Source: Fragilariopsis cylindrus CCMP1102 (lineage: Eukaryota; Bacillariophyta; Bacillariophyceae; Bacillariales; Bacillariaceae). Taken from it: a stretch of 64,000 bases of DNA. The stretch lies in the NCBI GenBank assembly GCA_900095095.1, contig FMBT01000064.1, positions 42,177-106,176 on the forward strand, written 5' to 3'. Every line of letters begins with the position of its first letter. Position 1 is the first letter of the stretch. Of this stretch, positions 10,989 through 64,000 are shown piece by piece. The notes beneath the pieces are model-generated. The model searched no databases. It was not told the DNA's origin and was given only the letters and a program-made list of their open reading frames with translations. Position numbers and translations under genes: made by a program.

Positions 10989-11482
10989 TGTCAACAGACT
11001 CGTTTAGAGGTTTGGTTCAGAGATTCACGTAGGATCCTACGTAGTTTCAGTACTGAGTGTATTTAAGCGATACAACTTGAGGTGCGCGTTTTCAATTAAT
11101 AGATTCTTTGATGGCTCATGATACAGTTGTGAATAATATTGTTTTCATTAAATCTACACATAGATAGACAAAGTTATTGTTTGGATTGCTACCGAAGCTG
11201 AGGAATTTACATGATTCATCTAATAATATATAATACTATTATTGTTGTAAGTGATTATTATTAAATATAATTTTATGTGCAGGCAGGACTTATTGTTGCC
11301 CTGCTGAAACTACGGATGATTGTTAATTTATTCAGTAGCATAGCATGGATCCCACCAGAATTGGTCAGTACCACATACTTCATGTCCATCTTCTCCTCTC
11401 AAATTATTTTATGATATAGACTGTGTGATGATATTTAATTATTATTTCACCATAATAAACATCCACGATTGATTGATTGTTT

Positions 11483-15892: not shown

Positions 15893-18800
15893 TTAATTAA
15901 AGAAATAGCTCAGGAGACCACTGCGAGATTCATTGCCAGTCTCTTCATCAATATCATCATCAATATCATTAGGATGTACAGGAAGTTCATGGGAACCTGG
16001 AATGAAATCCATTTCAATTTGATCAGCGACAGTCAAGACGCGTTCAACTAATCTATGATCTCGACAATTCTCTTGAATAATGTCTGTAATTTCCTGAAGT
16101 GCTCTTTGATACTCGAGTCTGGACTGGACCTCTGCTATATATGTCGCCGACTTGAGTTTCAACTCTTCTTTCGATTCTACCTGTAAAATATTCAGCTTGT
16201 GAGCCTGGCCTTTGTAACTTTGGACATCGTTCACCAATTTCATATTCGTCTTACTCAATTGTTTCGCATGCTGATTCAATGCAGAAAAAGAAGCTCCCGC
16301 AGATGCATTGGCATCCATTAGGCGTTGATTGTTATCTTTCAGAAGATCAAAGTCAGTCTTTAGCTGCTGATTCTGGCCCCTGAGTCGAAATACTTCTTTG
16401 CGTAGGTGTTCAAGCATTTTACCACTCTCGTCCATCAGTTGCTGTTGTTCTTCAGTCAAATCTTGAGCGTGCTGTTCTTCTGCCGTTTTCATATCTTCGC
16501 CGTCTTTTCCTGGTTCATCCGATTTTGTGGACAAAGAAGCTGCAGCGGCAGCAGCCAAATCTTCTACTTCTTTAGCTTTTCTGGCCTCTTTTTCTTTATG
16601 TTCTTCCATTGCCGCCGTCAATCTTCCCTCTGCTTCCTTTTCTGCTTCGAGTCTTTTCGTTTCTGCCTCTTCCAACTTCTTTTGCAAAGATCTGAGTTGA
16701 TTTTCTAATTTAGCCTCTTCTTTCTTTTCTTTCAGAGCTTGTTTGTATTTTGGACGCTGCAAACAACCTCGAATCATTGCCTGGACGACAATAGTTGCTT
16801 CAATGCTTCTTCGCAGCTCCCGCTTATCGCAGTGCATTCTCCATTGGGTTTGAATCAACGTAGCCCTTACTGATCGTCTCAGGTGATATACCGCACGGGT
16901 AGCAAAGAGAATACGATACCAGCATTCGATTCGGGTAGCAGCTTCGCGCAATTTCAAGTAGGCTCGTCTTTGTATCATTCTGCGATAATCAGCTTGCAAC
17001 GTCATAACAACTTTTCGGTATCTTGTGTACCTTAATTTGAAAACAAACCGACGAACTTCTGTCTGTATGGTGACAGCATACGAACCCAAATATTTCATAC
17101 GTTCTGCTTCTAAGAATTCTAGCGCCCCAGCTCGAAAGTATGCCCGTGTCTTTCCCATTACAAATGCTCGAAATTTCGATCCATTCTTCTCAAATTCCAT
17201 TTCTCTCAATGCTAGAGTCAAAAGGATATCAGTCGCCTTTTTACACCTCGCGTCTACATCTAAAGTCTCATTTTGTAAGACAACAATGTGATCACCCTTC
17301 GGCCATAACGACTTGAATCGGTCCAAGACTGATATATGCTCCAATCGATTTGGGAAAGCTGATCGGGAAATCGTCACCGCCGCTACAACTCCGGCGCATC
17401 GTAATTGCTCCACCGTACTGATATGATTCATAAGTAGAGGTGCCTTAATACTATTTGGCTTGATGCAACGGATGTATCTTGTCTTGGTTTCATTTAGGGT
17501 TTCCATTAATCTTGATAGCTGGCTTTTGAATTTCGTCCATACGGTTTCAGATACGATATTAGATGTGCGCTTCTTTAATCGTTGACTAGTCGTATTATGG
17601 ACTGATTTTGGACGTTTTTTCTTTTTGGAACCAGTATTAGTAGACGAAGAACCAGAGTTGTTCAGTGGGTTCATCATGTCCTCGTTGGTCAACTCATTAG
17701 CAATGATAGCGTTACTCGATAACTTCGCGCAATCCAACAAGTCACTAGGCAAATTGTCTGTGTTCTTCACGACAAAGTTGGTTGCATCGTAGACGACCTT
17801 ACCAGCATAATGAAAATTCCAAACTCTGTATCTGCTGCATGCTTATCACGGAAGAAACACCGATTTTCTTTGTTCATGGCCTGTGCTTTGTAAACAAAAG
17901 TTTTGTCACTTCCTTTCGGACGGACACATTCCTCATTCAAAAAGGCAAGTAAGCCCATTCTTCCTTCGACCAAATCTAGTACGTCTGTGTTATCGTCATA
18001 GGTGATCTCTTCCAATTGAATGCCTTCGTTTTCGTATTCCACTTGAACACTACGAAAAATATCTTGGGTGAATTTTTGTTGTAGTTTCTCGTTGCAATAA
18101 TTAATGCAAAGTTGTTCAAATCGATTTACCTCAAATGTTTCGAATCCAAAAATATCTAAAAGTCCGATAACACCAAATTCGATCTTGATGACGCTATTTT
18201 GTTCTGAGAATCCACCCGACGGTATTCTTCTCGGAACTGGTAGCATCGTTGATGGTTCGAACCAACCACAAGAAAGCTTTTGCATAAATCTCCTTGGCAA
18301 ATGCATCGGTAGACTCCTTAGCTTTTACAGGTGTTAGGGGGACCGCAAATACTTCACCACGAGCTTCTATACTCCGAACTGTTAATGCTTTCCTCAGTGC
18401 GATAGAAATTTTGCTATCGTCATCGATGTCACTCATTCCCATCAATTCACTCAATTCCTCGAGTTCATCAATACTACTAATGTCACTAGCATCATGATTT
18501 TCACTGTCATCACCTTTTATTGCACGACCAGGTTGATGATGAATACCGAGTGCTAGCATTCCAGACGAAGATTCAAGTTGGGCTGGTACAAATTCAATAT
18601 TCCCTAACTGAAGGACGACACAAATAGCCCGCAACAGCATCTGTAGGATTTCTCCCCGTACACCAATTAACTCTAATGCTTGCAACGTAAGTTGGAAACG
18701 TTCAGAATCTGTCTTGCCTTCAATGACATTAATTTCAGTTGGACCAACATAACAAAAGGATTCAGTATCGGTATCTTCTAGACCGTCCCAAATTGCAATT

Positions 18801-20068
18801 TTCAATTCTTCAGGCGCGGCCAATAATTGATAGAAAATATGATACGTTCGTTCAGAATCGTGATGGTGTGTCACACGTGACTTTTCTAGTAGGTAAACTT
18901 CACATTTACTACCAGCCAAGATAGCAGGTGAGGATCCTCCAGTTGACGTTATGTCATATTGGAGTTGAAGATATTTACCAAACCGTGACGAGTTGTCGTT
19001 TCGTAATGTTGTTGCATTACCAAAAGCCTCTAAAAGTGGATTAGAGTCTAACACGCGCTGAACAATACTATATTCTTGTTTTCCTGCTTTGCTATTTTTT
19101 TTTGCGGCGTTGGTCTCTTCTTGAATACTCGCAAGATTGTGCATAAGAATTTTAACTGTTTCTGTTTTCCCTGCACCAGATTCTCCCGAAACAAGAATAG
19201 ACTGATCTGCTTGTTCCGTCAATAGACCCTTATAAGCCAAACAACTCGTTTCGTACACATGTGGTGGGAGTAACGTTCGGGGATCGCTATCTTTAGAGCG
19301 CTGACGTTGAGACATCTGTGAATCTTCTGAGGTTGTTGGATTTATTCCTGCGTTTTGATTATTATTATTATTATTATTATTATTCTCTGCAGTGAATTTA
19401 CTATTCCATACTAAGGCCTGTGAATATCGATTCCGTACTTCAATACTGTACAAATGATGAAACCATTGGTACGGATTACATGCTAAGATAATATCTCCAG
19501 TACGTGAATACGGTAAGGATTCTACATGCCGGGCCTTGATGTTGTATAGAATTGCAGCCTCATGTAAAAAGGGTAAATCGACCATATCGTCCACAACCTG
19601 TAATAGACCCTCATTATTGACATTTTGCAACGGTAAATACTGGTTCGGATATTTGATCCGATTCTGATCATCAGTTAAATCAATAGTTTCTGTTCGGAAT
19701 CCTTTTGATGCCGCCCTACCCCCATCGCATTGGATTGCCTGTTCATTTTTATATTGTGGTACGGAAAGATGAACAACATTAGATATTCTTTCCTTCACTA
19801 TAGCTGGAATCCAACTATGTTCTTTATCAAGTATATAAACATAATTGGAGTGTTGGTAAATATCACTATCGGTGTTATCAGTTTCATTTTCATGATTGTC
19901 GTTATCATCGTTGTCATCGGTGTCATTCGTATTATTTTGGGTGACGACGTCAACAAGTTCCACCTCCACCTCTTCCTTAGGTGGTTCTGTGACTTCTGCA
20001 TCGTCGGCGGCCCTCGGGGACCCTCGCTCCGGCGGTCGCTCTGGTGATGGTGATGCCTGTCGTGGCAT
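15893..20068 (-). CDS. Myosin heavy chain, motor + IQ + coiled coil, two frame breaks
   Basis: About 1,390 residues with no intron detected. After an acidic N-terminal extension comes the motor domain: P-loop GESGAGKTE (about residue 293), switch I NDNSSRFGK, switch II/relay LLDIFGFETFEVNRFEQ, and the actin-binding segment ending RYIRCIKPN. About five or six IQ-like repeats follow (for example ATLIQTQWRMHCDKRELRR), then a charged coiled coil (about 16540-16730) and a second helical region. A polyAsn run and an extra Ser/Asp-rich loop lie inside the motor. The frame breaks at about 18215, in the variable stretch before switch II (one surplus base or two missing). It breaks again at 17813-17816, where one more T would restore the HYAGKVVYDATNF motif. 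Likely an actin-based transport motor; class not assigned. Confidence 0.92.
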
Positions 20069-20530
20069 TTTTGTAACAAAGATCTACTTTTAACTTAGTC
20101 TATTCGTTTGGCGTTAGCGAGTTTGCTAAAGCACAATGTCAATGTGAATTAGGTGAGTAAAGGATAAATAAATAAATGCTGATGTTGATGTGTTGTAAAA
20201 AAACAGATTTTAATGACGCCAACCAACACGACAAATAAGTTTCAAAATTTTGAAAAATCGAGCACATAGAATTTTGAATACTGTACTGTGAGCGTGAAAA
20301 GTATACTAAAAGTATACCACCGCGCACAACAGTTGTATTCTTATACAGTGCAAAATACAGTGATAATATCAGACATGCACCAAGTGAAAAACCACTATAA
20401 AATAACTAAGAGAATTTAACAAGCAGAAACACTAGTAAAACAAATGTGAATCGAAATTAATTTTTACTAGTAATTACATAACAAAAAGGACTAAAAGGTA
20501 AAAGTTACTAGTAATTATTGACCTTATTTA

Positions 20531-52407: not shown

Positions 52408-54576
52408 TTATTTCTTTGGAATAGCAGCCAAGGCCTCAGAACAAGCCTGACGACAGTCAACATCTTCTTCTTCCGCCATGCGACTTTCTAATGCTGGTAA
52501 AATCTGAGCCTGGACGACCGCAACCTGTGCAGGATCTTCTGCGGTAACAATCTTTGTTATACCCTGAGCGGCGACCATGCGTACATTCGCTACCCGATCG
52601 ACTAATCCACGTAACATTTGTAATACGGTATCATTCCATAATGTACCACCTGCTCCGGAACTATTCTCACCGCCATCCTCCCCACAGGCAAAGGCTGTTG
52701 CCGCATGTGCTTGAAGGATAGTTATCCGGATCAAGTAACTACCGGATGCTGCATGATTATAAATCCGTACATGTTGTGGTAGGATGTGTTGGACCATCCA
52801 ATCCTGTCCCGCAGCGTTGACTAATACCGGCATACCTGCAACACATGCCGTTCGGACACATGCAACTGGATCTAATAGCAAAACTAACCATGCCGGTTCA
52901 AGTAGTACATTGGCAAAGAAATCCAATCCACGTGCTTCCGCTAAGTGTGGTAATAACTTCGCAACACCCTCTCTAACTCTCCAATTGGTCGCCTTGGACA
53001 TATTCAAAATACTACTAACAACTCCATTCATACCATTCAATAGATGAGATAATTTATGTAGATTCCCTAATACCTGAAGTTGTACCTCTTGGAATTCATC
53101 TTGCAAAAAACCTTCCAATAGTGGACCGAATGTTTGAACGATTAAGGAATCATCCAATGTACCACCCTCAGAACTATCCATAATAGCAAGCGCGGTCTTA
53201 CTGCGGACCTCCATGACAACATCATCCGCCAGGCTAGGTAGTAATGGCATTAAGTAATTTGAAAATAATGCACTGCCACCCCAATGGACCATCCGTGCAA
53301 AGTGTCCAACAGCAGCAGCACGTACTTCAGCTTCTGCATCCGAAAGTAAAGAAACAAAGCATGCAACTACCAATGCTTGATCATTTGCATATTTTGAATT
53401 TCCCTGAAATCCAAGATTGATAGCAACATCACTAAACTTTTTAGCTAAATTGTGACGAACACGCCTGTATTATATTCAATCAATGATATTAATATTAATC
53501 GGGTCATCAATGATAATAATAATGGTATGATAATAATATGATAATGATAGGAAAAAGAAGAGGAAAGAAACAGAAAAAGAAACGAAAAAATGCATGAGAA
53601 GAAACTCGCTTCATCAAGAACCACCACCACCAACAACAACAACAAAATGATATATGTAGTATAATATGTAGAATAAGACAAGAACTTACCAACTTGTATC
53701 GGTACTACCTTCCTTTAATAGTGGTAGGAAATATTCTTTTGTCCAGTCTGGTGTTTTTCCAAAGGATGGACCAACATCAGCCATAGATGCAACAGCTAAC
53801 ATCCGTACACTATCTTGGTCGTCTTTACATAATTGTTGTAATACAGGAATTAAATCATTGGCTGCCTTATCTTTCGAACCACCTTGCAATGTGGAAATGA
53901 AGGATCCTAAATGTTGTGACGCTGCCCGTCGGACCATCGGTGTTTCATCTAAACACAATTCTTTAAATAGATACGATAATTCTGAATATTTTGTTAACGT
54001 GTGTAATGCTGGTAACATCCCAGCAGCGGATACCTTAGCGGTAAACCAATCCGCACCGACTAAACGTTTTGCCATGCTCACTAATGTTGTGACAACCGAG
54101 GCATCTAATGGTGTACTTGAATTTGCTGTTTGATTACCCATATTTGTACATAAATGATTCATGAGTACAACAGCCTCGTCACGTACCACAGTTTCTTCCA
54201 CAGCAGCAAGTCGTTCCACAATTGGTAATAATTCCATAACCTCGGATGGTTTTGTTAATAACGCAGGAACAAATGTTTGTATTTGTTTTGCCATAAGTAG
54301 TAATAGTTCATCATCCATTGGTGGTTGCGATAGTGCGACCTGTTGCAGGTATGGTAATAAATCAGATTGCACTGTTGTTGTTCCCATAGCATATGCAACA
54401 ACTGGTAAACGTTTCATTGCATCAATTTTTGCTTCACTATTACCAGTTTCCATTTGTGTTTGAAATAAATCAAATGGACCCATATTATTTAATTCGTCAA
54501 CACCCTGTGGAATACTCCTTGCCAATGTTAAGGATGTTGCTGGTGAAATCCCAGCGGGAGATAATGAAAGAGACAT
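52408..54576 (-). CDS. Protein phosphatase 2A scaffold (A) subunit
   Basis: Exons 54576-53690 and 53464-52408 around a 225-bp intron that splits a Trp codon (TDTSW|RVRHNLAKKF). 647 residues, no frame break. The whole protein is an array of about 15 HEAT repeats with the family's characteristic intra-repeat words: LPYLQQVAL, TVVRDEAVVLMN, TAKVSAAGMLPALH, TPMVRRAASQHLGSF, DQDSVRMLAVASM, WRVREGVAKLLPHLAEARG, DPVACVRTACVAGMPVLV. The A subunit is the horseshoe scaffold that holds the catalytic C subunit and a variable B subunit. This one is about 55 residues longer than the usual 589, mainly from an N-terminal extension and short inserts. Function in cell cycle and signalling is known from the family. 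Confidence 0.93.
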
Positions 54577-55396
54577 GATTTATTATTATTATTATTTATT
54601 TTTGTTATCTTTTATGCCTTATTTTGACGACACGCACAGGGGGGGGCGATATGAAAAAATGAAGTAAGGTGTGTCGTCCCAAAATGTAGAGACGATACTT
54701 TTGGATTCGATTCGACTGAATGAGTAGTCTGGTTACTACTGAGTGGGCTGGTAGATACAAGTACTTTGTACAAGTACAGCAAAAATGCAATGATTGGGAT
54801 CTGATCGACGATGGTGTCTATTGTAAAAAGATAGAGACGTTATTGCCGTAGGGTGTCTTAGCTAAGCATTGTCACCAGTCTTTGTCGTGGGGCATCGTGC
54901 AATTCGGTATGCTTCCAGTACCACAATCGCTACATAGTACTGTGCACACATACCTAGTACTAGTACTAGTACGCACAACGAACAAAGTACTGTACGCGCT
55001 AATTGCTAATAACGTTACAGGCAGTTTACATAGTACTGTAGTGCAGTAACTACTGTGTATGCGCAAATGGAGAACACCCACGCACAACGAGGGGCGATTT
55101 TTCAATTTGGGGGAGATGATGGTAATTTGTAATTTACATTGTTACTTACATCGTCTTGTGCTCCTGTACTAGAGTACTGTCCTACTGTACTATAGTAGTA
55201 ACAAGTGATACACAGTTGTAATTGTTTTGCTTACTAATGATATCAGTGAGTATTAAAATTGTATAGGGATTTCTGTTATATCTCCTTCCCTACACACACA
55301 CACACACTACTAGCTACTCAATCACACATTTTGATCATTGTAGTATAGTAATAATAGATAGTAGTTTTATAATATATCTGAAATTACAAAATAGAT
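54577..55396. other. Intergenic, no gene recognised
   Basis: Contains many TAGTACT/AGTACTG words and a short CA repeat near 55.29 kb. No coding region is supported. Confidence 0.5.
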
Positions 55397-55789
55397 CTAT
55401 TTTTGTTTGTCCCTTTCGCAGAATACATTAATCCATGCAACTTTTATTGTGTGTTGGACTTCACCTTGTAGATACTTGTACGTACCATAAAATATTGATG
55501 CCCAAATGGTACATCTTTCCAACAACTGTAACCCATGGCATGCCATGGCGATGGACGCGTATAGACAGGTTTCTCCCAGAATATTAAGTAGATCTTCTTC
55601 TGGAGGCTTCATTTGATAATACAATGATGTGTGCTTGTGCTTGTGCTTAGATTTGGATTTAGATCTAGATTTAGATTTAGATTTGGATTTGGATTTGGAT
55701 TTGGATTTGGATTTGAATTTGGATTTGAATTTGGATTTAAGGTCGGTTGAGTTGAGTTGATTTTGCCTCCTTTGCATAGCATGAGGCAA
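55397..55789 (-). CDS. Hypothetical small protein with Lys-Ser dipeptide repeats
   Basis: 130 residues: a short N-terminus, then about 17 Lys-Ser/Lys-Phe dipeptides made by a hexanucleotide repeat, a His-Lys stretch, and a non-repetitive C-terminal half (PPEEDLLNILGETCLYASIA...) with a hydrophobic helix. I do not recognise it. The repeat may simply keep a frame open by chance, but the C-terminal 70 residues are compositionally protein-like. It could also be an exon of a longer gene. Confidence 0.35.
   Translation of the reverse strand: MPHAMQRRQNQLNSTDLKSKFKSKFKSKSKSKSKSKSKSKSRSKSKSKHKHKHTSLYYQMKPPEEDLLNILGETCLYASIAMACHGLQLLERCTIWASIFYGTYKYLQGEVQHTIKVAWINVFCERDKQK
55649..55740. repeat. Hexanucleotide tandem repeat (GATTTG/GATTTA)n
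   Basis: About 15 hexamers, mostly GATTTG or GATTTA, in the plus-strand sense, coding Lys-Ser on the minus strand. Confidence 0.9.
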
Positions 55790-56913
55790 TGTGTTCAGTC
55801 AGAACTTACACATACTGTGTACCACTTGTACTCTACCTGCACTACCATCTGTTCAATCCATTGGCAATTAATCCGTCACAGAGTTTCAATTCCACCTCTG
55901 ACTTTTGAGCATTTAACATAGACACAACATACAGTACAAACATCCTGACAACATCTCAATCATGTGAGTAAAATGATTTTTCTTTATTTCTTGTGTCCAA
56001 TTTTTGGCGAGCTGCCTCTGCGCGCCAAACTCGTGCGTGCTAAAACACCACGATCGCAAATGATACCAAAAAAATTAATAATTGCCGAGAATTATAGCTT
56101 AGCTTCGCTACATTCTTGATTTGTGAAATAATAAAGATTCGAATCAATCGTTGCATCATTCTTTTCCTTATTTTATTCTTGTTACTTTACGTAGCGAAAT
56201 AGATCGAGTTTGTTTTGTTACCAACCAAGCTTCGATAGTGTCATATACAACAAGGTATGTATACAAGATTAATGTGTAGCTTTATCCGATTTTCGTTGGA
56301 TTTGATTTGATTTTTTCTTTGCAAGAATCATCATGATGTAATGTATGCGTTGACGCCCTTATTTGATGCTACGTAGATTTCTACGTTAAGATACTACCAG
56401 AGCAAAAGTAGGATCGAGACACGATAATTTTTGAACTTTGCTTTGGTGCAATCGAGATTGTTTGGTTAAAGCCAGATAATGTTATAATGTAGTGTACCTC
56501 CTATACACTCCGAAAGATGATCACGTCATTTTCGTTTTCATTTTTAAAACCTGATACACATTTATTATCTATCGGAAGCAAATAATGATCTCTACAATTG
56601 TTTTTAATTTGCATAATTTTCTCAATAGTGACACGTATTTCTCATTTCAATCAATCTCCTTTTCTTCTTCTTCTTTTTCACGGAATTTCTCTTTCGACTC
56701 TCATCATACTCAGATCTCATACTAGATCACTACGAACACAGATAACTATATTGTACTCGTTGCCGTGTCAAAAATAACAGGTGGATTGGCTGAGTCGTAG
56801 AAATCCATTTAATTTAATTCAATTCAATTAATTTGTATATAAACAATACATCCGCAACGCACAGATATAAATACAAACAAACAATCAATATAAATACAAA
56901 CATACAATCAACA
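55790..56913. other. Intergenic, promoter region of the Myb-HDAC gene
   Basis: About 1.1 kb of AT-rich DNA with no supported gene. A TATA-like word (GTATATAAAC, about 56834-56843) lies some 75 bp before the Myb-HDAC ATG; this is weak evidence for a promoter. Confidence 0.45.
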
Positions 56914-59900
56914 ATGGGTGAGCCAGATAGTTACTTTGATTACGATCCGGACAATCATAATGATAATAATATCAATGCATCCTCAGAAGAAACAACTAAA
57001 CAACATACGCAGTTTTTAGATTTGACGAATGGTACAGGTGGTGTCGGGGAGAGCATAGGATTGTCGATGGCATATAACGATGACGATAATTACGGAATAT
57101 CCAATGATGATGATAATAACGATACTATGATTGGTGGTGATAGTACCAGTTTAAATAGTATTTCTGCACCGCCCGACTTATTTTCATCGATGAACAACAC
57201 ATCAACGATTCAACATTCATCGATTACTCTTCCTAGTATTGGCGGTATCAGTAGTGCCGTTGGGGGTGGGGGTGAAATTATGATGATTATATTGATGCTG
57301 CAATTACTGGTGGAGGTGAAGGATTATTAAAACTTGATCCTAGTCCATTAGGAAGAGTTGTAGAAACAGGTCACGAACATACCGGCCGGTGGACGAAGGA
57401 GGAACATGATGCCTTCCTTAGTGGACTTAAGATGTATGGGAAGGAATGGAAAAAGGTTGCAGCTAAGGTTAAAACAAGGACAGTCGTTCAGACTCGTACC
57501 CATGCACAGAAATATTTTCAAAAATTATCCAAGGCAACGGAAGGAAAAGAAGGTGCAACAAGGTTCAAATGGGAACAGCATCCGATTCTAAGAAAGGTGG
57601 CAATAGTAGTAGTGGTGGTTCTGCCTCGAAGAAAAAACATCGGATAGTGACGACGGCGGCAATGACACCATCTTTGTCAATTACGACTCCTTGTCGATAA
57701 CAACGACGATACCATCTATATTAGATAAGATTTCGAGGACAACTAGTGTCGCATCTGCCGCTCAAGTTATATCGACATTGTCAGGACAGAGACATCTAAA
57801 TAATAATATTACCGGTACACTTCCATCATTGTCTTTCGGTCGACCATTAGAAGCATCCCCACCGTCTCCATCTAGAAGTCATGGTTTTCATCAGACATCG
57901 GATGCAGTTGGTATTGGTACAATGAATAATAATTTATCGCACCAAGCAGCAGATCGGGGTGGTATGTTTCAACCGACCCATGGATTTTCAAGCTCCTTTG
58001 CTACAACAACTAGTGCATTCAATAATAATGAATCATCAAATCCAACAGCATCTTCAGTGAAATCATCTTCTATTATTGGTACCAAGGCATTCCCTAGTAG
58101 CATGAAGATTATCGCACCAGATCATGATTCGGCAATAAAACGAGGCAAGTTCCCAGAACCATCACCTGCCGCCTGTGGAAAACGAAAGTTAGCAGAAATT
58201 GCTGCAGCTCGTATGTTGGCAGGTGTACTAGCGTCGGAACCATTACTACCACCACAGTCGTCGTCGTCGCAATCCTTTTCCGATGATAGGAATATTACTA
58301 TGCAGCAGCAGCAATCATCTATGTTGAATCCTTTCAGTAGTAGTAGAGATACATTGACTGCTGCTGTTGCTAATCATATGGATCACCGTGATCGTAATAA
58401 TCCATTTGGTAACATCGATGATATCGATGATGGGATGGCAACACCACCTCCAGAAGAAGTAGAAGGAAACAATAATATTGGAGCTGCTCAATCAACCAGT
58501 GCTACTGCTAGTTTCGAAATGTCAAAGATACCTAAGCAACAGGGCGTCGTCGGAGGAACTAGCACCAACATCAACAACACCACTACTCCAAGAAAGCCAA
58601 TGGGACTATCATTACAAATTGTTAATCCAGAATCACTAGGAATTTCTCATGAAGAAATAGCAAAACGAAAAAAGGATGGGAATTTGTCTCCCCAAACTCC
58701 GTGGGAAGGTCAACTTCAAGCTTTAGTAAGGTAAGATATTCTCTAACTTCGACGGGAATGTAAAATTTTGACTTGCTTGTTACCATCCAATGTATAAGAA
58801 CATCTGATATGATATGCATATGAACTAACTCACACGCAAACAACAACTGCTGCTGCCTTAATCGTGATGGATGAACCAATCGATTCCCAATCAGCGAGGA
58901 GGAGAAGCGTAAAGGACCAACGCAAGAGACGACCACTGTAGGCCTACCGAATGCACCAGGAATGGGGGTACTTGATATGCCTGTAGTAAACTCTTCCGTA
59001 CATCCTATTTGCGGTCCTGGTTCAGGATTTGGACGGAGTATCCTTCACAAAGCTGTATGTGATATTGATATTTTTACGCTTCAAAGTCAACTCTCATCAC
59101 GGCCTGACAATTTTGATCGTCGAGATGAAAAGGGATATTGTCCAATTCATTCAGCTTGTGCGTTATGCATGAAAGATCCAATGAATTCTATCCGGACGAC
59201 TGAAATTGTGCGAATGCTAATCGCTGCTGGTACCGATGCATCTATTCGTGATCTAGAAGGGAACACACCTCTTCATTGGGCAGCTCGAGCTGGAGATAAA
59301 GCAACAGTAGAACTGCTGCTTGTTAAAAACAACCCAAAAGGTAAGATTAAATTTATGATAATGACACGTAAAGAGATATGCAAAGTAAACGTGTAGAAAG
59401 CATATGCACAAAATGGATCTCATTTTCAATATCATTCTTTCCGCTCCTTTTTCTTTTTTGCATTCTTCAAATCATATATTTAACATAATTTGTTCAGATG
59501 CAAAGAATGAACGCGGAGAAACACCATTGCATTGGGCCATGCGTTCTGGACGACTAGGAATCCCAGTTGCATCCATCTTACTAGAAAATGGTGCTCGGCC
59601 ATCTGTTTGGAATACTAGCTTCAAACGACCGATAGATGTTGCTGCTGATGGGTTTTTCGATGAGTCCGATCCGGTGATGGAACTTAGATCCCTAGACGAG
59701 AAAAAGAAGAAACTGAAGAAAGAGCAGAAACAGAGACTACGCGAAGCTACCGTGGAGACGAAAGAGGCACGTGCAAATCTATTTGACTGTTCTCCCCAAT
59801 CAAGAACTCTTCTCTTGTACCATCCTGAATGCCTAGAGCATATTCCAAAAGCAGAAGGTGACTGGGAAAATCCGAATCGTATAATCAGTATAATGGAACG

Positions 59901-61471
59901 AATTCAAGGGAATCATGAAAATTCTGGTGCTCCGTCAATATACCCTCGTGAGATACAAATTTCACAAGAATTTGAACGTGCAAAACTTGATCTATTGAGT
60001 CGGGTTCACAGCACCGAATATCTCAATTTCGTTAACGAATTAAGCAAAGATCTAGAGCGACAGCACAAAGCTCAAAATGGCAGTGACGATTCTGATGATA
60101 ATTGTGGAACCCCTCCTGTTGTCCCGTTCACCCCAATGGTAAGATCTTATTCTTTTTGTCATAATGTATTCCGAGGTTTTGTTCCTATTTATTATAGTAT
60201 AATCTTACCATAGCTCTTCTCTATTCTTTGACTTGTTCAGGTACAAAGGTCTATGATAAAAGAAATCCAAGAATCACATGTAAAAATTGGTGAACATTCC
60301 GACACTTCTTTCAGTGCAGGCTCGTTACGAGCAGCTCGTAGGGCTGCCGGAGCAGTACAGCACGCCGTTGACTGGTAAGGTTTTGTTTGCATTTATTTCT
60401 GAGATGATTTGATCCATTTGTTACTTTTATCTGGTTTCATCTCACTCCTTTTTCATATATATCAAATATTTTAGCGTTCTTGTCGGAAGACACCGAAATG
60501 CATTTTGTATTGTTCGACCACCGGGTCATCATGCTGGTATTAATGGTTTATTGGACGGCGGAGAATCTTGCGGTTTTTGTATATTCAACAGTGTCGCTGC
60601 TGGTGCCATGCATGCCATTTCTAACGAGCGATTGATGTGTGAACGCTGTGCCATCGTCGATTTTGATGCTCACCACGGGAATGGTACTGAAGAAATCGTT
60701 CGGAAATGCCATGACCCGGGAAAATTATTCTTCTTTTCTATTCATGTTTACGATAATGATAAAAAAGGAAAGCGTGAATCGAAATCTTTTCAATATAAGT
60801 TTTATCCTGGAACTGGAGATGAGGATGATCTCCCTCTAAATATTATCAATGTTCCGATCACTCCACTATGGAAGGAAGGAAACCAAACTCCCGTTCAAAG
60901 GGAACACAACACTCGTCATCGAACTCGGAATCGAGGAAGTCAAAGTGACGACGGAAGCTCATCAGAAACTGGAACTCCAAGAGTTAGCGATGCTGAAGTT
61001 GAATCAAGGATAAGGTCGAGGGCGTCCTCTCCCGTCCCGTTCAATGCAAACGCACCGGGGGGACGCATTGCATATAGAAATTCAATTCAGAATAGATTAC
61101 TGCCTGCTCTAAGAGCTTTTAATCCTGATCTGATCCTGATAAGTGCAGGGTTTGACGCTTGTAAGGGTGATGTGGGGAATGCTAAACATGAGATGGGTGG
61201 AAAAGAGAAAATGGGTATTGATCTTGAGCCGGAGGATTATGCATGGACGACCCGCAAAATTCTTGAGATTGCTGATATATGTTGCCAAGGCCGCGTTGTG
61301 TCCGTCCTGGAGGGTGGATACGGTAGACATAGCACCTCAGGGGTTCATGATCCCACAGAACCACTCGATAAATCTATTTTCAGTGAATGTGCGATACGAC
61401 ATGCTCATGCCATGATCGATCCGTACGATGCCGAAGGAAGGTTTGGATCTTCTTCACAAAAGAGCAAGTAA
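56914..61471 (+). CDS. Myb (SHAQKYF) + ankyrin + histone deacetylase fusion protein, three frame breaks
   Basis: Exons 56914-58730, 58895-59340, 59498-60138, 60241-60374 and 60475-61471. Every junction is GT-AG and keeps frame; 1,345 residues if three bases are restored (57275-57277, about 57582, 57691). The acidic Asn/Asp-rich N-terminus leads to a single Myb/SANT repeat of the SHAQKYF class (GRWTKEEHDAFLSGLKMYG to TRTHAQKYFQKL). A long Ser/Asn/Pro-rich linker follows, then ankyrin repeats (GYCPIHSACALC, GNTPLHWAARAGD, GETPLHWAMRSG). The C-terminal deacetylase domain has RPPGHHAG, the zinc-site DFDAHHGNGT, SAGFDA and the LEGGYG loop. A DNA-binding domain joined to a deacetylase suggests a self-targeting transcriptional repressor in the nucleus (inference). 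If intron 1 is not spliced, a stop follows at once and the two halves would be separate genes, the second starting near 58962. Confidence 0.85.
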
Positions 61472-62243
61472 CGTTACAAACTGTAGTAGGAATATAATAT
61501 GATTTTTAATTTTGGTTATCTCGCATCAGAATAAATTTGTTATAAGATAAGTGCAGTAGTTTTAAAGCTTTATGCTAGTTGTTCGCGGTGTATTCAATTT
61601 ATTTCTATTTTACTTTCATACCAAACACCGAAAAACTGATCATCTCAGTCTTCTCAATAAAGTACCAACCTGCTTGCTGATATATAAAACATTGCAGTGG
61701 CACCAGATTAGAATAGTATGAACTCCATTAAAAGAATCGCAAAGTGGAAGGTAAAAAGTAAACATTTAACGGGTTGTTATGCGGACTAATTTTCACGTAC
61801 TAGCTAGTACAACCTTCAACCTACAGTAATTTAAATTTCGTTCAAAAGCTGAGATATTACCGTATGATCTCATCGTCGAATGAATCGTGGCTACAGTACT
61901 TAGCATTGTTGTCCCTTTTTATTAGCAAGCACCCCTCCTCACCTGAAAGTGCCGGTGGTTTCGATTTGCTAAAATCATTGTAATGATTTCAAGGCAAGGG
62001 ATTACTGTACAAGTATACTACCCATGGTTTTCTGGCCCATTTGTACCCTTTTACACTGGACTTTACAGGGCTTCGCTTTACTATCATGTACCGACATAGA
62101 AAAGGGAAGTAAAGAGAGTAGAGTAGAGAGATAAAGGTTACAGTTACAGCTTTTGAAAAACAACAACAGAGGAATCGCAATCCAGCTGCATGTTTAGTAT
62201 TATCATAATACTAATATAGTTGGCGTACAAGTATAATATCAGC
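61472..62243. other. Intergenic, no gene recognised
   Basis: 3' flank of the Myb-HDAC gene and upstream region of the membrane-protein gene. No coding signal. Confidence 0.5.
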
Positions 62244-64000
62244 ATGTGGGGATGGTGGCAAGAAGTAGAAGAAGATGGATACGACAACGACAACTCAAAT
62301 TCGTATTCGTTTGCCATTCTAGATCGAATTTTAGCCGCCGGCGGGGAAGGTGATGACGGTGGAGTAGGGGGTCGTAACAGTACCAACGACGATCCGTATG
62401 CAGAACAAGATCCTTATGCAGTGTTACCCCTGGATTACACAATATTATCCTACGGAATAGCCACATTGTACTTGATTCTAATCGTAGAATCGATACGTCA
62501 TTATATCGACCATGCGGCACACGGACGACCCTTCTTTAAGGCCGTCCTACTGACGGCTTATAGCGAATGTAAGTATGCATGGCACAGCACCTATGTTATG
62601 TTCTTGGGATAATGCATGTATTTCTTCTTTCTTTGTTTTTAATTTACACACACACTGACACTGACACTGACACTGACACTGTTCAAATATATTATGCCAC
62701 CCTCGTATCGTTCACTTTTTTTTCTCCTCTGTCCTCTTTCTGATGTATATTTTGGAAAACGATCACGTTTATAGTGGCAACTCTTGGAATTGTCGAGTTT
62801 GGTTTATTTTTGTGGGGAAAGTATGGTACCATTGACAAGGTGGTGAAAACAAAATTCGCCGACGTTCATTTTGCCCTCTTTTTCACGGCACTGTTCAACG
62901 CTTTTCAATACAGTATAACATCGATCGCATCAACTCGCTTCTCTAATAGTCAGTGGGTACAAACGGAACAATTAGAACTAGATCACTACGTTGAAATTCG
63001 AGAAGAATACGACAGGGTTGATAGGATGATGGGACACCAATCTACTAGAATCGGCAACAAATGGATCCAAAATTGCATCCTCTCTCTTACACAACCTGGT
63101 TTGCGACGGCGGCACAAATCATTACGAGTGCAAATTCGATTTCATGAACTTCGTCTGTATTTATTAGAATCCCAAAACCTACCCCTGACCATAAAAGTTA
63201 GTGACTACTTGAAACGATCCGAACTTTCTATCTTAATTGGTCTCGTTCATGTCTCTGCCACCGCATGGGTCCTCCTTATCGGGAGTATGAACATTCTCTA
63301 TTTTACTATAGGGATGGTTGGGTACACTAATAATCAACTTGACATTATGTCAACTATAATTGCCGTGATCTTCTTTTCAATGGACTTTTTATTCATAGTT
63401 ATATCTTGGGCGCTTCGATGGAAGGTAAGGTTATATTTCGTAGCTCTACACTTCTAATTGATTCCTGAGTGCGACAGCTCACTTTGTATAACACGGACAT
63501 TTCTAAATTTCTACCTTTACTATTTTGATTGAAACAAACAAACAAACCAACAAACAAACAGATGCACCGTATCTTTCAAACTATCATGTAAGATCTTATT
63601 TCGTAGCTCTACACTTTTTATTGATTCTTGAGTGTGACAGCTTATTTTGCACAATAATTCTCATTGAATCAACACGGACATTTTTTCTTGTACTATTTTA
63701 ATTGAAACAAACAAACAAACTACAGCAAAATGAAAATACTTAACACATCGGATTGGAAGGAGGGCATTGGTAGGCAACGACGGCTGTTCTGGTTTGGATC
63801 ACCTACTCTCGTGATTTCTATGATCCAATTGATGAATTTTGGATACGCCATCTCGTTTTCCATCATTATTATCTACTGGAAATATATTATTAACTATGAT
63901 CTGATAAACCTGGGTATTATCTTATGTTTTCTATTGGATGTTATTTTATCTTCCTTTACAATCTTTCATGTTTGCTACCAGAATATACTTTATGTACATC
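62244..64000 (+). CDS. Multi-pass membrane protein, 3' end beyond window
   Basis: Exons 62244-62568, 62775-63424, 63562-63587 (26 nt) and 63726 to the window edge. Introns are 206, 137 and 138 bp; all junctions are GT-AG and keep frame (for example SE|LATLGIVEFGLFLWG, and K|MHRIFQTI|IKMKIL). No frame break. At least six hydrophobic helices are visible: YTILSYGIATLYLILIVES, LATLGIVEFGLFLWG, FALFFTALFNAFQY, LIGLVHVSATAWVLLIG, IIAVIFFSMDFLFIVIS, and more near the edge. A cytosolic-looking loop carries WVQTEQLELDHYVEIREEYD. The E-L-x-x-LG start and VHFALF segment are faintly like MLO proteins, but I would not assign it. The first intron carries a CACTGA repeat. The window ends inside a helix-rich exon. 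Confidence 0.75.
63425..63725 (+). repeat. Duplicated intron pair around a 26-nt micro-exon
   Basis: Introns 63425-63561 and 63588-63725 are copies of each other. They share ATTTCGTAGCTCTACACTT, TTGATTC(C/T)TGAGTG(C/T)GACAGCT, ACACGGACATTT and GATTGAAACAAACAAACAAAC in the same order, and both donor and acceptor sites are preserved. The 26 bases between them form an in-frame micro-exon. Confidence 0.9.

Follow-up and report, generated by a model that had tools for sequence, protein, structure and literature searches.

Profile searches located a Myb domain, ankyrin repeats and a histone deacetylase domain (Hist_deacetyl), in this order along the plus strand, between positions 56914 and 61471 of the window, the whole 64-kb stretch of DNA that was analysed. 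The window lies on contig C54, and the genome searched comprised 67.9 Mb in 818 contigs. Its 27 matches to the silicon-transporter family, a family typical of diatoms, reach up to 757 bits and make a diatom the probable source. All three matches were above the curated cut-offs of their profiles. A putative start codon opens an acidic, Asn-rich N-terminus (56914–57290, frame 1, within an open reading frame at 56818–57330), which is followed by the Myb domain of the SHAQKYF class (57384–57527, frame 0) and by a low-complexity linker (57628–58730, frame 1, within an open reading frame at 57613–58734) that extends up to the donor of intron 1 (58731–58894, GTAAGA...CAG). Downstream of this intron, exon 2 (58895–59340) carries ankyrin repeats, exon 3 (59498–60138) carries the end of the repeats and the start of the histone deacetylase (HDAC) domain, exon 4 (60241–60374) continues this domain, and exon 5 (60475–61471) holds the HDAC core and the stop codon. 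All of these features lie on the plus strand. On the minus strand, at 55397–55798, a 133-amino-acid open frame contains a Lys-Ser repeat, which may be a mere simple repeat.

Introns and conserved domains

Each of the four introns (58731–58894, 59341–59497, 60139–60240 and 60375–60474) has a GTAAG donor and ends in AG, and the exons that they separate form one frame to the stop codon at 61469–61471. Two GTAAG donors (58726 and 58731) and three YAG sites are present near intron 1; among the six pairings, that of 58731 with the first YAG is the only one that connects linker and ankyrin repeats in frame, and the acceptor of intron 1 is the first YAG after 58740. Within intron 1 itself, all three frames scored no better than typical non-coding sequence. 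Intron 1 is convincing, and the gene model downstream of it is good. A preliminary description of this DNA had stated that intron 1 joins the two halves in frame and that three further introns keep the frame to the HDAC stop, and the four introns proved sound, intron 1 lying exactly where it had been placed.

On the spliced exons, the ankyrin repeats matched Ank_2 with 63.1 bits (cut-off 27.3), and PF00850 scored 199.9 bits over profile positions 3–287 of 298, which represents a complete HDAC domain; the open frame at 60413–61468, which contains exon 5, scored 155.9 bits on its own. The motifs RPPGHH (60515–60532), DFDAHH (60659–60676), SAGFDA (61142–61159) and LEGGYG (61307–61324) are all present in exon 5 and align with HDAC6, in agreement with the earlier statement that the zinc-site residues (D, H, D) are in place. 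We take these motifs to provide the His pair, the zinc ligands and, in LEGGYG, the catalytic Tyr. Vertebrate class IIa enzymes are without this Tyr, whereas the HDAC of the window has it. Among the best 60 of 69 PDB matches, HDAC6 chains came first, followed by 5ji5 (BuphA, presumably of Burkholderia), further HDAC6 chains, HDAC15 and HDAC4. The best explanation of the locus includes a class II-type HDAC that is predicted to be catalytically competent.

The Myb domain scored 49 bits with PF00249 (cut-off 24.4) and 41.7 bits with TIGR01557 (myb_SHAQKYF; cut-off 29.3), and it belongs to the SHAQKYF class as defined by the latter profile and not by the literal motif, which is absent; the sequence at 57498–57518 is THAQKYF. 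The same variant occurs in a Myb paralogue of this genome (L013). PDB 6nvz matched the domain with an E value of 3.7e-13, and the domain sequence with its HAQKYF helix is that of the SHAQKYF single-repeat Myb factors represented by 6nvz and TIGR01557. The protein predicted here differs from these factors in the T as first letter of the motif and in the ankyrin repeats and HDAC that follow the Myb domain. SHAQKYF single-repeat Myb factors are usually without an enzyme domain.

Reading frames around the Myb domain

As assembled, the frame that begins with the ATG at 56914 runs into a stop codon at 57328–57330, before the Myb domain. The preliminary description had taken the Myb half as one frame, which proved incorrect: coding runs through frames 1, 0, 2 and 1 in succession. 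The codon scores place the changes from frame 1 to 0 at 57274–57294, from 0 to 2 at 57555–57584 and from 2 to 1 at 57623–57643, that is, within about 370 bases, and a short Ser/Gly/Lys-rich stretch in frame 2 (approximately 57560–57625) lies between the second and third changes. Each step amounts to a deficit of one base (or a surplus of two), and with the third the initial frame is regained. The Myb frame is open from 57276 to 57647, with no stop in the domain and no ATG ahead of it. The linker, open from 57613 and back in the first frame, is the only part of the Myb half whose frame continues across intron 1. No continuous frame from Myb to HDAC was present in C54 or in C384, a near-identical second contig.

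All three breaks are identical in C384. The comparison of the two contigs thus lends no support to omitted bases at these sites and does not discriminate between such omissions and real changes. Over window positions 53559–63467, the alignment of C54 with C384 shows a single substitution and six indels; all six fall at 54764–55243, and the only difference within the gene is C/T at 58037. Elsewhere in the window, frame-shifting indels are common: 9 of the 17 open reading frames of at least 300 amino acids that are covered by the C54/C384 alignment (19 such frames in all) contain at least one indel not divisible by three, some of them near the ends of the frames and several offsetting one another in some frames, while both open reading frames of the Myb-ankyrin-HDAC gene contain none. 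The window frame at 18197–20083 is open for 629 codons, and C384 is without single bases at five places within it; conversely, a 942-codon frame of C384 spans three sites (17815, 18184 and 18224) where the window misses a base. Cases in which one contig keeps open a frame that the other interrupts suggest that bases were omitted from the assembly, with true haplotype differences as the alternative. We consider missing bases the most likely cause of all three breaks near the Myb domain.

Beyond this locus, the alignment of window positions 11261–64000 with C384 gives the two contigs the appearance of haplotypes. Many stretches up to approximately 46 kb differ densely, and few differences occur beyond that point as far as the contig end. 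At 15896–20083, single-base differences break long open reading frames in either contig, and the gene models of this assembly need care.

Coding character and alternative readings

The training set of the codon-score model comprised 12755 codons, drawn from 21 long open reading frames that were unverified; ten of these came from the window before 56900, and two in L019 form an overlapping antisense pair. Since this model also served to define the non-coding pool, its scores are comparative and not independent probabilities. On these scores, the N-terminal stretch 56914–57273 reached 34.1 over 120 codons (equalled by 0 of 1945 non-coding stretches), and the linker from 57922 to 58729 reached 70.7 (0 of 1031). 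The final 29 codons before the donor of intron 1 scored only 7.4, a value reached by 5 of 2608 non-coding stretches, and the end of the linker had no match elsewhere in the genome. The linker has coding character.

The Myb domain and the ankyrin-HDAC part might be two head-to-tail neighbours, a SHAQKYF Myb factor and an ankyrin-HDAC enzyme, that were read as one, and the relatives of the two halves are in keeping with this. The nearest HDAC paralogue, on the minus strand of contig C91 (L046, 2090–5370), has its ankyrin repeats in an open frame that immediately precedes the HDAC frame, which is the order of the window gene, and an acidic N-terminus; no Myb match was found on its contig. Its HDAC is 34% identical to that of the window over 378 positions, and the similarity of the ankyrin parts is weak. 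The nearest Myb paralogues (L013 and L014, with approximately 3.2 kb covered at each) showed no second domain in the frames scanned, and HDA2, in the available part of a published stramenopile ortholog set (PMC4030286), combines ankyrin and HDAC without Myb. An in-frame Met is also present early in exon 2, at 58962, where an ankyrin-HDAC protein could start.

Against two genes, a break after the Myb domain would leave 57628–57921 (up to the first in-frame Met of the linker) untranslated, yet this stretch scored 20.5, which none of 2106 non-coding stretches reached. A break at intron 1 would likewise leave 58896–58961 untranslated, yet its score of 10.3 was reached by none of 2659. Moreover, the linker frame ends within a GTAAG donor that joins it in frame to the ankyrin exon, and there is no ATG before the domain in the Myb frame and none before 57922 in the linker frame.

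The frame-2 stretch between the Myb domain and the linker is the weak point of reading the locus as one gene. It scored 9.3 over 57560–57625, and 1 of 2659 non-coding stretches scored as high. A home-made frame decoder, the outcome of which depends on its switch penalty, placed frame jumps within one strand at 14 sites of the window and at 13 sites in 70 kb of C384 when the penalty was 12, with all three breaks in both contigs. At a penalty of 16, it placed nine jumps in each contig and kept only the first of the three breaks, and at 20 it placed none in either. With the penalty at 16, it marked 57559–57627 as non-coding, which would fit two genes; at this setting, it also missed the short exon 4.

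Since the linker and the joints mostly score as coding and frame-shifting indels are common elsewhere, one gene is likelier than two, and we consider the two-gene explanation unlikely. With the intervening linker and the flanks of intron 1 scoring as coding and intron 1 itself convincing, a single gene is the best reading. The single Myb-ankyrin-HDAC protein proposed earlier retains its domains, their order, the coding linker and intron 1, while the three breaks and the absence of a continuous frame count against it as it was first drawn.

A possible cause of the breaks, to which we give rather little weight, is that small introns with atypical donors account for the frame changes, the assembly being right and the protein intact; this overlaps with the reading as one gene and differs from it in what causes the breaks. 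The ranges that were searched contain 12 GT-AG pairs (44–86 bases) able to bridge the first change and two further pairs (79 and 85 bases), either of which could serve as one intron downstream of the Myb domain. However, none of these 14 pairs has the GTAAG donor that all four firm introns share, and their removal would cost coding-like sequence (57276–57314, scoring 6.0 in frame 0, and the frame-2 stretch 57560–57625 with its 9.3). Less likely, and in our judgement quite improbable, is a decaying Myb half in this strain, in which real frameshifts would have split a former Myb-ankyrin-HDAC gene and the ankyrin-HDAC part alone would be made from a downstream start: the three frame changes cluster at the Myb domain and are identical in two contigs, but the domain is free of stops and above its profile cut-offs, codon bias is kept in the N-terminus and the linker, and other open reading frames also have frame-shifting indels between the contigs.

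We favour, with fair though incomplete confidence, a single gene at 56914–61471 that would encode an acidic, Asn-rich N-terminus, a SHAQKYF Myb domain, a linker, ankyrin repeats and a predicted competent HDAC, whose frame breaks most likely reflect bases that the assembly omits, and which would act by Myb-tethered repression.

Relatives and proposed function

Genome profile searches gave at least 16 matches to Hist_deacetyl on ten contigs and at least ten to the SHAQKYF Myb profile on ten contigs; these counts are lower bounds, and upstream parts could be missing on some of the HDAC contigs, which are short (C10, 10.9 kb; C503, 21.4 kb; C301, 27.1 kb). Among the matches listed, only C54 and C384 carried both domains, and these are two copies of one locus. 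The Myb domain is the unusual part of the architecture.

The preliminary description knew of no characterisation of this exact architecture. This holds for the triple combination: no description of Myb, ankyrin and HDAC in one protein was found in the accessible parts of the open-licence full-text literature, and the available text of PMC7339932, PMC8638923 and PMC8854648 contains nothing on such a fusion. It does not hold for the pieces. Stramenopile ankyrin-HDACs are represented by HDA2 of Phytophthora infestans (PITG_08237; PMC4030286) and by oomycete class II HDACs with three to four ANK domains (PMC5112689), which, like the window gene, combine ankyrin and Hist_deacetyl in one protein; in the window gene, the repeats lie N-terminal to the HDAC in one spliced frame, an HDA2-like arrangement. 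The likeness is one of domain make-up, and the available portions of these sources list no Myb domain and bracket the ankyrin repeats as missing or non-significant in some species. An oomycete class II HDAC with an N-terminal PHD and two AP2 domains and a C-terminal Med27 domain (PMC5112689) also unites a DNA-binding-related domain with HDAC in one stramenopile protein. It has AP2 and PHD where the window gene has Myb, and ankyrin is unmentioned for that combination in the text available. PMC3145265 lists class II HDACs of marine stramenopiles, Phaeodactylum among them, and in P. tricornutum one half of the MYB-related factors belong to the SHAQKYF type (PMC4827209); the accessible parts of both papers make no mention of a SHAQKYF Myb-HDAC fusion. 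Hist_deacetyl was found to be selective in its domain partners in four of five model organisms surveyed, according to the available part of PMC2993927. The combination is thus new as far as the literature search went, while its pieces have published precedents.

If the gene is joined as we propose, its product is probably a DNA-directed deacetylase. Zinc-dependent histone deacetylases mostly depend on separate DNA-binding recruiters. Here, the Myb domain would bring the protein to short motifs in the DNA, a partner may bind to the ankyrin repeats, and the tethered deacetylase would strip acetyl groups off nearby histones, so that genes would be repressed without a separate recruiter. It seems to us an evenly balanced proposition that this is a zinc-dependent HDAC with its own SHAQKYF Myb domain, in which one polypeptide would read a DNA motif and deacetylate there, and that it arose by addition of Myb to a stramenopile ankyrin-HDAC of which a Myb-less sister copy persists in the genome. 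If so, the Myb domain could carry the deacetylase straight to chosen genes, the natural fusion would offer a ready test of whether a motif-tethered deacetylase suffices to silence diatom genes, and the Myb-less paralogue would serve as its natural control.

The Myb domain could instead serve as a histone-binding, SANT-like module, a role compatible with its resemblance to the repeat of MYSM1/KIAA1915 (PDB 2cu7), a similar Myb/SANT repeat within a histone-modifying-enzyme protein; the enzyme would then be chromatin-directed and not sequence-directed. We take MYSM1 to combine Myb/SANT with an H2A deubiquitinase and not with a deacetylase. The net charge of the window domain is +8 over 48 residues, compared with +8 for the MYSM1 repeat and +3 for 6nvz, and charge does not discriminate for DNA binding.

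Two further collections, viral_contigs and genome_contigs, were searched with the two halves as queries; their contents are viral or prokaryotic, and absence there is uninformative for other diatoms. With the ankyrin-HDAC query, 24 pattern stretches in viral_contigs and 73 in genome_contigs yielded no confirmed match, and the Myb query likewise gave 11 stretches and none confirmed in viral_contigs. Of its 83 stretches in genome_contigs, one was confirmed, over query residues 25–57, on the MAG contig L048. This short SHAQKYF-like Myb match was discarded as uninformative since the neighbouring frames look eukaryotic; the contig, a GTDB metagenome contig labelled Verrucomicrobiaceae, is possibly eukaryotic contamination.
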